Assembly: GCF_030812295.1 (NCBI RefSeq)
Contig: NZ_JAUSSK010000001.1
Coordinates: 1,054,001-1,118,000, forward strand
DNA: 64,000 bases
Source of the DNA: Luteibacter jiangsuensis
GTDB taxonomy: Bacteria > Pseudomonadota > Gammaproteobacteria > Xanthomonadales > Rhodanobacteraceae
Direction of reading: 5' to 3'
The position numbers and the translations under genes were made by a program. How positions within the stretch are numbered: the first letter of the stretch is position 1; every line of letters begins with the position of its first letter. Shown here one piece after another: positions 32,957 to 39,039 of this stretch. A model generated the notes under the pieces. The model worked only from the letters and a program-made list of their open reading frames with translations. It was not told the origin of the DNA and ran no database searches.

Positions 32957-33036
32957 GTGGGAGCCGCTTCAGCGGCGATGGGTGCTTGCCGGCAACTGGC
33001 CCGCTGCCGCGGGATCGCCGCTGAAGCGGCTCCCGC
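32957..33036. repeat. Inverted pair of REP-like units
   Basis: GTGGGAGCCGCTTCAGCGGC... (32957-32989, including the GGTGCTTGC tail) faces its reverse complement at 33014-33036, 24 bases apart. Each unit folds on itself (GCCGC-TTCA-GCGGC) and the pair can also form one long hairpin. It fills the 295-base gap between the bolA stop and the smc start; I see no gene there. Confidence 0.85.
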
Positions 33037-36542: not shown

Positions 36543-38213
36543 TCAGGCGGGCAAGGCCTCCTGGTGTACGCCGCGGACCGCGCGGCCCGAAGGGTCGGCC
36601 GCCGCCGCGAAGGCGGGGTCCCAGGCCAGGGCCGCCGGCGACGAACAAGCGATCGACTTGCCGCCGGGCACCGTGGCCGCACAGGCCTCGCCAGGGAAGT
36701 GCTTCTCGAACAGTGTCCGGTAGAAGAAGGCCTCCTTGGTGGCCGGCGTGTTGACCGGGAAACGGGCGGCGGCCGCGGCGAATTCGCGATCGGAAACCAT
36801 CTTCTCCGCGTATGCCTTCAACCCGTCGATCCAGCCGTAGCCCACGCCGTCGCTGAATTGCTCCTTCTGCCGCCAGAGGATCGATTCCGGCAGCGCCCCC
36901 TGAAAGGCCTCGCGCAGGATGCCCTTCTCGATGCCCTTGCGCGCCACCATCTTCGCTTCCGCGTCGAAGGACATGGCGGTCTCCAGGAATTCGGTGTCGA
37001 GGAAAGGCACCCGCGCCTCGACGCCCCAGGCGGACATCGACTTGTTCGCACGCAGGCAATCGTAATAATGCAGCGCGTCGAGCTTACGGATCGTCTCCTC
37101 GTGGAACGCACGCGCCGAGGGCGCCTTGTGGAAGTACAGGTAGCCACCGAACACCTCGTCCGAGCCCTCGCCCGAGAGCACCATCTTCACCCCCATCGCC
37201 TTGATCCGCCGTGCGAGCAGGAACATGGGCGTGGACGCGCGGATCGTGGTGACATCGTAGGTCTCGATGTGGCGGATCACTTCCGGCAGCGCGTCGAGGC
37301 CTTCCTCGAAGGTATAGCGGAATCCGTGGTGCACGGTGCCGAGCGCCTCGGCGGCGATCTCGGCGGCTTTCAGGTCGGGCGAACCTTCCAGGCCGATCGC
37401 GAAGGAATGCAGGCGCGGCCACCACGCCTCGCCCCGGTCGTCCTCCTCGATGCGACGGCGCGCGAACCCCGCGGCCACCGCGGCGACGAGCGAGGAATCC
37501 AGGCCTCCTGAAAGCAGCACGCCGTAGGGCACGTCGGTCATCATCTGCCGGTGTACGGCCGCCTCGAATGCGGCGCGCAACGCGGCAGGCTCGATCGACT
37601 TGCCGCGGGTCGCGTCGTAGTCGCGCCATTGGGGTGTCCAGTACGCCACCGGCTCGCCGCGCTCGCTGTCGTACACGTGCCCCGGCGGGAACGGGGCCAC
37701 GTCGGCGCATACCCCCACCAGCGACTTCATCTCGGAAGCGACGCACAGGCGCCCTTCCCTGTCGTGCCCCCAGTACAACGGACAAACGCCGAGCGGATCG
37801 CGGGCGATGAGGACGCGGCGTGTGCCGGCATCCCACAACGCGAAGGCGAAGATGCCGTTGAGCTTGTCGAGGAACCCGGCGCCCTGCTCGCGGTAGAGCG
37901 CGTTGATCACTTCGCAATCCGAGCCGGTGGTGAAGGCGTAATCGCTGGCCGCGCGCAGTTCCCGGTGGTTATAGATCTCTCCGTTCACGGCCAGCGCAAG
38001 ATCGCCCTCGGGCGATCGCAACGGCTGTGCACCGCTGGCGGGATCGACGATGGCGAGGCGCTCGTGAACGAGGATCGCACCGTCGTCGACGTATACACCG
38101 CTCCAGTCCGGCCCGCGATGACGCTGCCGTTGCGAAAGCTCCATCGCCCGCGTACGCAGGGCGACCAGGTCGTCGCCGGCGGCGAGGCCGAACATCCCGA
38201 AGATCGAACACAT
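36543..38213 (-). CDS. asnB: Asparagine synthase (glutamine-hydrolysing)
   Basis: Makes asparagine from aspartate, glutamine and ATP. The 556 residues have the N-terminal class II glutaminase domain with the catalytic Cys2 exposed after Met removal (MCSIFGMFG), HRGPDWSG, VNGEIYNHRELR, and the C-terminal synthetase domain with PP-loop SGGLDSSLVAAVA and LSGEGSDEVFGGYLYFH. Length matches AsnB (554 in Escherichia coli). A GGGAG lies eight bases before the ATG. Upstream, on the same strand, are a terminator and a short Asn-rich leader reading frame, so I infer transcription attenuation by asparaginyl-tRNA supply (see findings). Confidence 0.96.
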   Translation of the reverse strand: MCSIFGMFGLAAGDDLVALRTRAMELSQRQRHRGPDWSGVYVDDGAILVHERLAIVDPASGAQPLRSPEGDLALAVNGEIYNHRELRAASDYAFTTGSDCEVINALYREQGAGFLDKLNGIFAFALWDAGTRRVLIARDPLGVCPLYWGHDREGRLCVASEMKSLVGVCADVAPFPPGHVYDSERGEPVAYWTPQWRDYDATRGKSIEPAALRAAFEAAVHRQMMTDVPYGVLLSGGLDSSLVAAVAAGFARRRIEEDDRGEAWWPRLHSFAIGLEGSPDLKAAEIAAEALGTVHHGFRYTFEEGLDALPEVIRHIETYDVTTIRASTPMFLLARRIKAMGVKMVLSGEGSDEVFGGYLYFHKAPSARAFHEETIRKLDALHYYDCLRANKSMSAWGVEARVPFLDTEFLETAMSFDAEAKMVARKGIEKGILREAFQGALPESILWRQKEQFSDGVGYGWIDGLKAYAEKMVSDREFAAAAARFPVNTPATKEAFFYRTLFEKHFPGEACAATVPGGKSIACSSPAALAWDPAFAAAADPSGRAVRGVHQEALPA

Positions 38214-38248
38214 GGACCACTCTCCCGATGAGGAAAACGCGCAAAGAA

Positions 38249-38277
38249 AAAGGCCCGCCTGGTGAGGGCGGGCCTTT
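38249..38277 (-). terminator. Attenuator terminator in the asnB leader
   Basis: On the minus strand AAAGGCCCGCC, a 7-base loop and GGCGGGCCTTT form a perfect 11-base stem followed by TTTTTCTTT-type T-rich sequence. It lies 36 bases upstream of the asnB ATG and 29 bases after the leader-peptide stop. No other minus-strand gene ends here, so it terminates only the asnB leader transcript. Confidence 0.88.
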
Positions 38278-38306
38278 GGTGTATCGGTGGTTTCACTTGC
38301 AACCGC

Positions 38307-38375
38307 CTACACGCCGACCCTCCCGAGATTCCGGGCATTATTGGTATTGGCGTTATTGGCGGCGAAGCGAATCAT
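38307..38375 (-). CDS. Asparagine-rich leader peptide of the asnB attenuator (putative)
   Basis: A 22-codon frame starting ATG ATT CGC and ending GTC GGC GTG TAG. Asparagine is at positions 7, 8, 10, 12, 13 and 16, six of 22 residues, and five of the six codons are AAT, unexpected in such GC-rich DNA. It lies on the asnB strand, upstream of a strong terminator that precedes asnB, the layout of classical attenuation leaders (trp, his, leu, thr). The last base of the TAG codon begins GGCGG (38303-38307), which can pair either with CCGCC in codons 5-6 (38358-38362) or with CCGCC in the terminator 5' arm (38267-38271). There is no clear Shine-Dalgarno; the mRNA may begin at the ATG. Function is inferred, not shown. 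Confidence 0.72.
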   Translation of the reverse strand: MIRFAANNANTNNARNLGRVGV

Positions 38376-38381
38376 GGTTCG

Positions 38382-38414
38382 ACTAGAGCATGATCCGGAG
38401 CGTGATGCAAGCAC
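38382..38414 (-). promoter_or_regulatory. Candidate promoter of the asnB leader transcript
   Basis: On the minus strand TTGCAT (-35), 17 bases, then TCTAGT (-10), with the leader ATG beginning six bases after the -10. Each hexamer is only a moderate match. If real, transcription would begin at or next to the A of the leader ATG, giving a leaderless message. The -35 overlaps the tail of the adjacent REP-like unit. Confidence 0.35.
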
Positions 38415-38577
38415 CCATCGCCGCTGAAGCGGCTCCCACATCAGGCCCCACCCGCAAAAGGCTCCCACATAAGCGACGCCTGCGCGAAGATGGCGACCAC
38501 ATCAGGCGAGACCACCTCGGTGCCGCCTGGCGTAACCCAAGTGCCGCATACCCCGTGGGAGCCGCTTCAGCGGCGAT
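38407..38577. repeat. Two inverted REP-like units upstream of the asnB leader
   Basis: TGCAAGCACCCATCGCCGCT... (38407-38440) and GTGGGAGCCGCTTCAGCGGC... (38555-38577) are the same family in opposite orientation, 114 bases apart. The rest of the 394-base gap between asnB and the next gene holds the leader frame and attenuator on the minus strand; between the units I see no gene. Confidence 0.75.
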
Positions 38578-38607
38578 ATCGGTCAAAGCAAAAGGCAAAC
38601 GAGTCAA

Positions 38608-39039
38608 ATGAACACCCTGCTAGCCCTCGCCCTCATGTCCACCACCACCCAACCCACGCCCGCCTGGCTCGCCGGCGACTGGGAGCCCTACAGCAACGCC
38701 TTCATCGGGCTGCGCATGCTCAGCATCGGCAAGGCCACGCTGAGCTGGAAAGGCTGCAAGAACGTCCACTTCGACGTGCTGGAATCCGAGGGCGGCAGCG
38801 TGACGCTGCGCCTGGCTCCCGGCAGCACATGCTCGCTCGACGACGAACCGCCCACGCGCATGGACACCCTGCGCCTCACCCTGCGCGAAAACCATTGCGA
38901 CCTCGGCGTGACGATCTACGCCTCGCCCGAAGCCGCGAAGAAGAACGAACCCGCGGCGGAAGGCCTCTATGGCAAGCCCAGATGCCCTTCGGGCCCGGTG
39001 GGTCAGGCCGCCGCCAACCTCTCGACCACCACCCGATAG
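38608..39039 (+). CDS. Hypothetical protein, probably exported
   Basis: 143 residues that I do not recognise. The N-terminus MNTLLALALMSTTTQPTPAW has a short hydrophobic stretch without basic residues, so export is possible but not clear. The mature part has WLAGDWEPYSNAF (a phrase seen in small lipocalin-like or DUF proteins) and four cysteines (KGCKN, STCSL, NHCDL, PRCPS), an even number that would suit periplasmic disulfides. Its last 37 bases overlap the end of the convergent hutF gene, so both stop codons lie within the other gene. No strong ribosome site is seen; codon use is like its neighbours. It stands alone on its strand. Confidence 0.65.
   Translation: MNTLLALALMSTTTQPTPAWLAGDWEPYSNAFIGLRMLSIGKATLSWKGCKNVHFDVLESEGGSVTLRLAPGSTCSLDDEPPTRMDTLRLTLRENHCDLGVTIYASPEAAKKNEPAAEGLYGKPRCPSGPVGQAAANLSTTTR

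Follow-up and report, generated by a model that had tools for sequence, protein, structure and literature searches.

The asparagine synthase gene asnB of Luteibacter jiangsuensis is very probably controlled by an asparagine-specific, ribosome-mediated transcription attenuator whose leader peptide is probably read from a leaderless mRNA. The window, which is the whole stretch of 64,000 nucleotides that we analysed, carries a short asparagine-rich leader frame, an intrinsic terminator and asnB in this order (Table 1). An earlier note on this DNA had suggested that asnB is attenuated in response to asparagine, in the manner of the trp, his, leu and thr leaders, and this core claim is supported by the finding that Asn leader and terminator are conserved upstream of asnB. 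What we observe in the sequence and by comparison are the leader, the terminator, the promoter motif and its position, an antiterminator complementarity that changes in step, and the enzyme context.

Table 1. Features of the asnB leader region, in window coordinates.
Feature	Position	Strand	Basis or comment
Leader ORF, 22 codons + TAG	38307..38375	(-)	sequence read directly and relatives; mRNA probably leaderless, starting at its AUG
Asn codon cluster (codons 7, 8, 10, 12, 13, 16)	38328..38357	(-)	proposed stall site if Asn-tRNA is short
Intrinsic terminator, 11-bp stem, 7-base loop, then TTCTTT	38249..38277	(-)	terminator scan
Antiterminator left arm GGGAGGGTC (leader codons 18-20)	38316..38324	(-)	homologous columns, 52 loci
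Terminator 5' arm + first loop base GGCCCGCCC, common to terminator and antiterminator	38266..38274	(-)	alignment
Putative promoter TTGCAT - 17 nt - TCTAGT; -10 ends 6 nt before leader ATG	38382..38410	(-)	sequence and relatives
asnB, glutamine-hydrolysing asparagine synthase B, 556 aa	36543..38213	(-)	NF006949, TIGR01536, PDB 1ct9
Shine-Dalgarno-like GGGAGAGTGG of asnB	38217..38226	(-)	sequence

The leader peptide reads MIRFAANNANTNNARNLGRVGV (minus strand, ATG at 38375, TAG ending at 38307). Direct reading gave the same 22-codon frame as described before, with Asn at codons 7, 8, 10, 12, 13 and 16, encoded by five AAT and one AAC. In the relatives, the leaders are 20-45 codons long and contain 3-10 Asn each (116 leaders). 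AAT makes up 367 of their 789 Asn codons versus 75 of 564 in asnB itself (window and named loci). Compared with the window leader, eight other Luteibacter leaders show 23 non-synonymous and 14 synonymous codon changes. The peptide is therefore not kept as a whole.

The combination of leader and terminator is widespread. We found an Asn-rich short ORF in 118 of 143 asnB upstream regions, together with a detected terminator in 117 of these, showing that the arrangement is conserved across the Rhodanobacteraceae, where the earlier note had proposed to look for it, and beyond. The set of 118 consists of the window, 78 named loci, L107-L110 and 35 loci from an order-wide sample; L001, which is the window itself, and L082-L106, whose family was already sampled, stand outside both sets. 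Among the 25 regions without an Asn-rich ORF (L145-L156 and L158-L170), 23 come from more distant families. Of the 80 named loci, L046 and L063 were excluded from the counts, their upstream DNA being only 123 and 60 bases long; in each of the other 78, the most Asn-dense upstream ORF end had between 3 and 8 Asn within 12 codons, with only three in L057, L071 and L073. The nine best named matches are all Luteibacter, family Rhodanobacteraceae. One named locus outside family f1 also carries the leader, namely L070 from Luteimonas cucumeris (Lysobacteraceae, probably our family f2).

The order-wide sample comprised 200 genomes, 128 of them with asnB, and 60 upstream regions were examined. Leaders were present in 34 of the 36 regions from families f1, f2 and f3 and in 1 of the 24 from other families. 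No leader was seen within 500 bases upstream of asnB in G067 (f1) and G091 (f2), which both possess the gene, nor within the same distance in 23 of the 24 regions from f5, f6, f8, f10 and f11. The one region of this latter group with a leader, L157 (G082, f8), combines the Asn leader with a terminator ahead of asnB but lacks the close promoter layout; the leader is absent from the six other f8 regions examined. Among 276 genomes sampled across the class, there were five asnB matches at E <= 1e-150, one of which lies outside the order. The genome with this outside match belongs to another gammaproteobacterial order, in which 81 of 119 genomes have asnB, and no leader was seen in the 30 of these 81 upstream regions that we scanned. 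Two borderline cases from this order were rejected by eye: L181 is the tail of a longer open frame, and L203 lies in AT-rich DNA without the layout.

Could such an Asn-rich frame arise by chance? The earlier note judged this unlikely, and indeed the asnB leader is the only ORF end in the window, on either strand, with at least four Asn in 12 codons. The neighbourhoods of asnB in 109 loci (L002-L110; 1,309,754 strand-bases) contain 107 such ORF ends. A terminator follows within 60 bases in 95 of the 107, and all 95 are asnB leaders, seven of them in loci stored in the opposite orientation, which rules out a chance ORF. We additionally built a covariance model, R1, from 52 leader loci, covering the leader tail and the terminator and excluding most Asn codons. 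In a search of the own genome the top match was the asnB leader site with 74.7 bits, followed by a match to the terminator part alone (29.5 bits) and by the end of a longer open frame (25.9 bits). In 64 of 67 tallied asnB genomes (out of 128; those from f1, f2 and f3 and G082), the matches listed include one immediately before asnB and in its orientation, partly by construction because R1 was built from 52 of those loci. The exceptions are G067, G091 and G155, and the last of these has a leader by eye (L121). We inspected 16 non-asnB matches, and none of them reached four Asn within 12 codons; the frame in L225 has three ahead of its stop. By eye, the non-asnB matches are mostly ends of longer frames, with tRNA-like stretches in L216 and L226.

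Three of the secondary R1 matches, L217, L221 and L222, are Ile/Leu/Val-rich frames before terminators. They come from the same order and resemble branched-chain leader peptides.

These searches bear on the idea that a fortuitous Asn-rich ORF happens to precede the terminator of another transcript, unrelated to asnB control. The genome does contain many terminator-like sequences that match the 3' part of the model. However, the leader is kept in three families with a pairing that differs in step, and the 1.31 million strand-bases hold no other such combination, so that we give this explanation next to no credence.

The terminator itself is as described earlier, a perfect 11-bp GC-rich hairpin with a T-run that begins 29 bases after the leader stop. 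The order of hairpin and gene given in the earlier note is also correct; the distance from the stem to the asnB ATG (38213) is 35 bases by our measurement and not 36. A relaxed scan detected a terminator in 117 of the 118 loci, the only exception being L073, where the hairpin is there and the T-run is broken. A stricter scan found one within 30 bases in 71 of 78 loci. In an alignment of 52 loci, 98.5% of the stem cells are paired. Double-change cells in this stem number 43 versus 8.2 in shuffles, while two of five measures, the pairs changed on both sides and the further pair types, are not above shuffles.

The same terminator speaks against a model in which translation of the leader affects asnB by translational coupling or through mRNA stability and not through transcription termination. 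The leader stop lies less than 130 bases from asnB in many loci, as such a model would like to have it, but the distance varies from 75 to 441 bases across the named loci, all but one of the 118 loci have the terminator between leader and gene, and most asnB genes (99 of 118) are preceded by a Shine-Dalgarno-like motif of their own. We regard coupling as very unlikely.

An attenuator of the proposed kind needs an alternative helix, and in the relatives the codons with which the leader approaches its stop show complementarity to the 5' arm of the terminator. The leader of most Rhodanobacteraceae has GGCGGGCC (or GGTGGGCC) facing GGCCCGCC in the arm, while many f2 genomes have CCGATGCGGG facing CCCGCATCGG, and in L144 the arm contains CCTGC and the leader GCAGG. 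The leader arm is located at -18/-19, upstream of the stop, in most f1 loci. Over the 52 aligned loci, 88.2% of the cells in these columns are paired, compared with 32-51% in slid registers. Double-change cells number 22 versus 8.1 in shuffles, a value that none of 500 shuffles reached, in a register derived from the same 52 sequences; pairs with a double change (4 versus 3.0) and pair types (10 versus 9.7) are not above shuffles. Eight of the nine arm positions pair in all eight Luteibacter-like rows, and the ninth pairs in only one of them; the Luteibacter arm GGGAGGGTC has one A-G mismatch.

Duplex energies point in the same direction. The leader/arm duplex has a median of -20.6 kcal/mol, and in 80% of 117 loci at most 5 of 100 mononucleotide shuffles are as good. 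When we swapped the families, f1 leaders gave -12.4 kcal/mol with f2 arms versus -20.9 kcal/mol with f1 arms; the reverse swap is weaker, with -16.1 for f2 leaders and f1 arms versus -17.9 for f2 arms. Randomly combined leaders and arms pair in 87% of cells versus 93% for the own partners (108 loci, 85 distinct, 10 dropped), barely worse because the core is GC-rich and almost invariant, so that the signal resides in the flanks and between the families. The duplex of the window, taken by itself, is weak: it has -16.0 kcal/mol and a z of -0.95, and 18 of 100 shuffles do equally well. Since it is not significant there, the window arm is assigned by homology, and the case for an attenuator rests on comparison. 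Simulated partial folds, available for 115 of the 118 loci, gave at least 5 bp of this helix in 115/115 loci but also in 77% of shuffles, for which reason we give the simulation little weight. At least 7 bp were reached in 100 of the 115 versus 52% of shuffles, which is mildly informative, and the 6 bp of the window are inside the shuffle range. The duplex and alignment analyses used 117 and 52 of the 118 loci. Over the relatives we thus find a candidate antiterminator that would compete for the 5' arm of the terminator and that a ribosome at the stop could cover.

The earlier note had placed the switch elsewhere, in a GGCGG overlapping the leader stop that would have two alternative CCGCC partners, one in codons 5-6 and one in the terminator arm. 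These segments are present as written. As a conserved switch, the pairing does not hold up: of the 118 loci, only 14 have GGCGG at this place, and these are all Luteibacter-like (among them L012, a Pinirhizobacter), and CCGCC in codons 5-6 is missing from two of 11 Luteibacter leaders (L003 and L052). The same attenuator could still use GGCGG as its switch arm within Luteibacter, where GGCGG is kept in 11 of 11 leaders of this type, where the minimum-energy leader fold pairs it with codons 5-6, and where the best arm duplex of L005 and L052 uses GCGGGTT at the stop. Given the two leaders without CCGCC, the narrow distribution of GGCGG and the position of most f1 arms, we consider this variant unlikely. 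As the conserved switch, the predicted antiterminator arm before the stop (codons 18-20 here) replaces the GGCGG/CCGCC pairing. Because the pairing of GGCGG with codons 5-6 occurs in the minimum-energy fold, it may serve as a protector in Luteibacter. Another candidate protector, the CCCG/CGGG columns, is not well conserved, with 64.0% of cells paired versus 51.5% in shuffles.

A point that the earlier note missed is the leaderless start. A generic sigma-70 scan did not detect the promoter of the window leader. In the relatives, leader starts were assigned by a selection that itself required a TTGC/TTGT box within 31-40 bases, and this gave a start for all of the 118 loci except L049 and L157. 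The box precedes these 116 starts by 31-38 bases and is at -35 or -36 in 105 of them. A TAGT/TACGGT-like -10 element has its last T at -7 in 73 of the 116 loci and at -8 in another 41, and the base preceding the start is C in 111. A Shine-Dalgarno-like 4-mer precedes only 4 of 116 leaders, versus 99 of 118 asnB genes. Because the -10 element ends just before the start and Shine-Dalgarno motifs are rare, the leader mRNA probably starts at its AUG and is thus probably leaderless, with a 5' end predicted from promoter spacing. If so, one may ask how a ribosome that starts at the extreme 5' end keeps pace with RNA polymerase.

From these data we infer the stalling, the 5' end, the termination and the asparagine response of the following scheme. 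Transcription would start on the A of the leader AUG, and a ribosome would load onto the leaderless mRNA. With ample Asn-tRNA, it would pass the Asn codons to the stop and cover codons 18-20, the left arm of the antiterminator. With this arm covered, the terminator would fold and transcription would end about 130 nt from its start. With Asn-tRNA scarce, the ribosome would stall on the first Asn codons (7-8), which in 115 loci are found 15-25 codons before the stop, and would leave codons 18-20 free. These could then pair with the terminator 5' arm, allowing RNA polymerase to proceed into asnB.

The enzyme context fits a sensor of Asn-tRNA. AsnB scores 843.8 bits with NF006949 (cut-off 499) and 432.6 bits with TIGR01536 (cut-off 267.1), and it is related to the solved enzyme PDB 1ct9. 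The genome encodes AsnRS, and neither GatB (E <= 1e-60) nor AsnA was found in it. The free asparagine made by AsnB is therefore apparently the only source for Asn-tRNA here, as an Asn-tRNA sensor needs. Among the 200 genomes of the order, some of them incomplete, asnB (128) and gatB (53) never occur together. Nature has thereby set up an experiment, in which the leader is found where AsnB is apparently the sole Asn source and no sampled genome with GatB has asnB. AsnB itself contains only six Asn codons in 556, all AAC.

Ribosome-mediated attenuators of proteobacteria are known for the trp, his, leu, thr, ilv and phe leaders. The asnB leader resembles them in a short ORF that carries codons of the amino acid being made, in the terminator before the gene and in an alternative helix that shares the terminator 5' arm. 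It differs in that asparagine would be sensed, in that the protector hairpin is not clearly conserved and in that it matches no Rfam family at the cut-off. Asparagine genes are otherwise controlled in response to asparagine or tRNA-Asn by Asn T-boxes and AsnC. A T-box binds the tRNA directly without translation and AsnC is a DNA-binding protein, whereas the asnB leader reading depends on translation. A covariance search for T-boxes in 37900-38900 gave no match at E up to 5, and the attenuator would explain the control of asnB without one. We know of no case of leader-peptide attenuation by asparagine. Among known Rfam leaders, the best candidate was Thr_leader (RF00506), rejected with 24.1 bits against a gathering cut-off of 55. 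Of the elements by which a leader-peptide attenuator is recognised in sequence, we found a short ORF with its own start, over-represented cognate codons, a terminator and, in the relatives, a candidate antiterminator.

In the literature searched, as titles and the beginnings of abstracts and with subscription papers largely outside the coverage, no Asn leader peptide is named. PMC2965389 gave no hit for asnB or asparagin, and PMC3039613 none for asnB, asparagin or leader. As far as this literature reaches, asparagine is a new specificity within known proteobacterial leader-peptide attenuation that has not been described. Leaderless leader peptides have precedents. For trpL of Sinorhizobium meliloti, the attenuated RNA has been reported to begin at the ATG of the leader ORF, giving a leaderless leader-peptide mRNA (PMC7298713). 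The asnB leader probably shares this leaderless start, though its 5' end is predicted from promoter spacing; unlike it, trpL responds to tryptophan and belongs to an alphaproteobacterium. The leaderless polycysteine short ORFs of mycobacteria, with their cognate codons, are reported to attenuate downstream genes (Canestrari et al. 2020, as cited in the review PMC9031893). The asnB leader would be like these ORFs in being leaderless and in using cognate codons; they differ from it in that they concern cysteine and actinobacteria.

We therefore consider it likely, on balance, that the asnB leaders form an undescribed, leaderless class of Asn-responsive attenuators, that this is the usual asnB control in at least two families (Rhodanobacteraceae and, via L070, Lysobacteraceae = Xanthomonadaceae), and that it arose where Asn comes only from AsnB together with AsnRS, without GatCAB. 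Environmental genera that are easy to cultivate belong to the families in which the leader is conserved, and the proposal is thus directly testable. One may also speculate that the released leader RNA of about 130 nt, or the Asn-rich peptide, might have a function in trans of the kind that has been reported for trpL in S. meliloti.

Two neighbouring elements deserve mention. With regard to a possible operon with prfB/lysS, 78 of 109 loci have a match to PrfB downstream of asnB and in its orientation, although many of the loci extend only 1.5-2.5 kb in this direction. Despite this arrangement prfB may have its own promoter, since a TAGAAT-like -10 element is visible by eye upstream of it. The prfB start region (36386-36308, minus strand) contains a programmed-frameshift-like site, AGGGGGTATCTTTGAC, at 36323-36308. 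Finally, the REP-like palindromic repeat GTGGGAGCCGCTTCAGCGGCGA occurs at 38418-38439 (-), 38555-38576 (+), 32957-32978 (+) and 33015-33036 (-), where chance would give 0 copies. The copies, one of them with one mismatch, form two inverted pairs, and one pair lies immediately upstream of the leader promoter.
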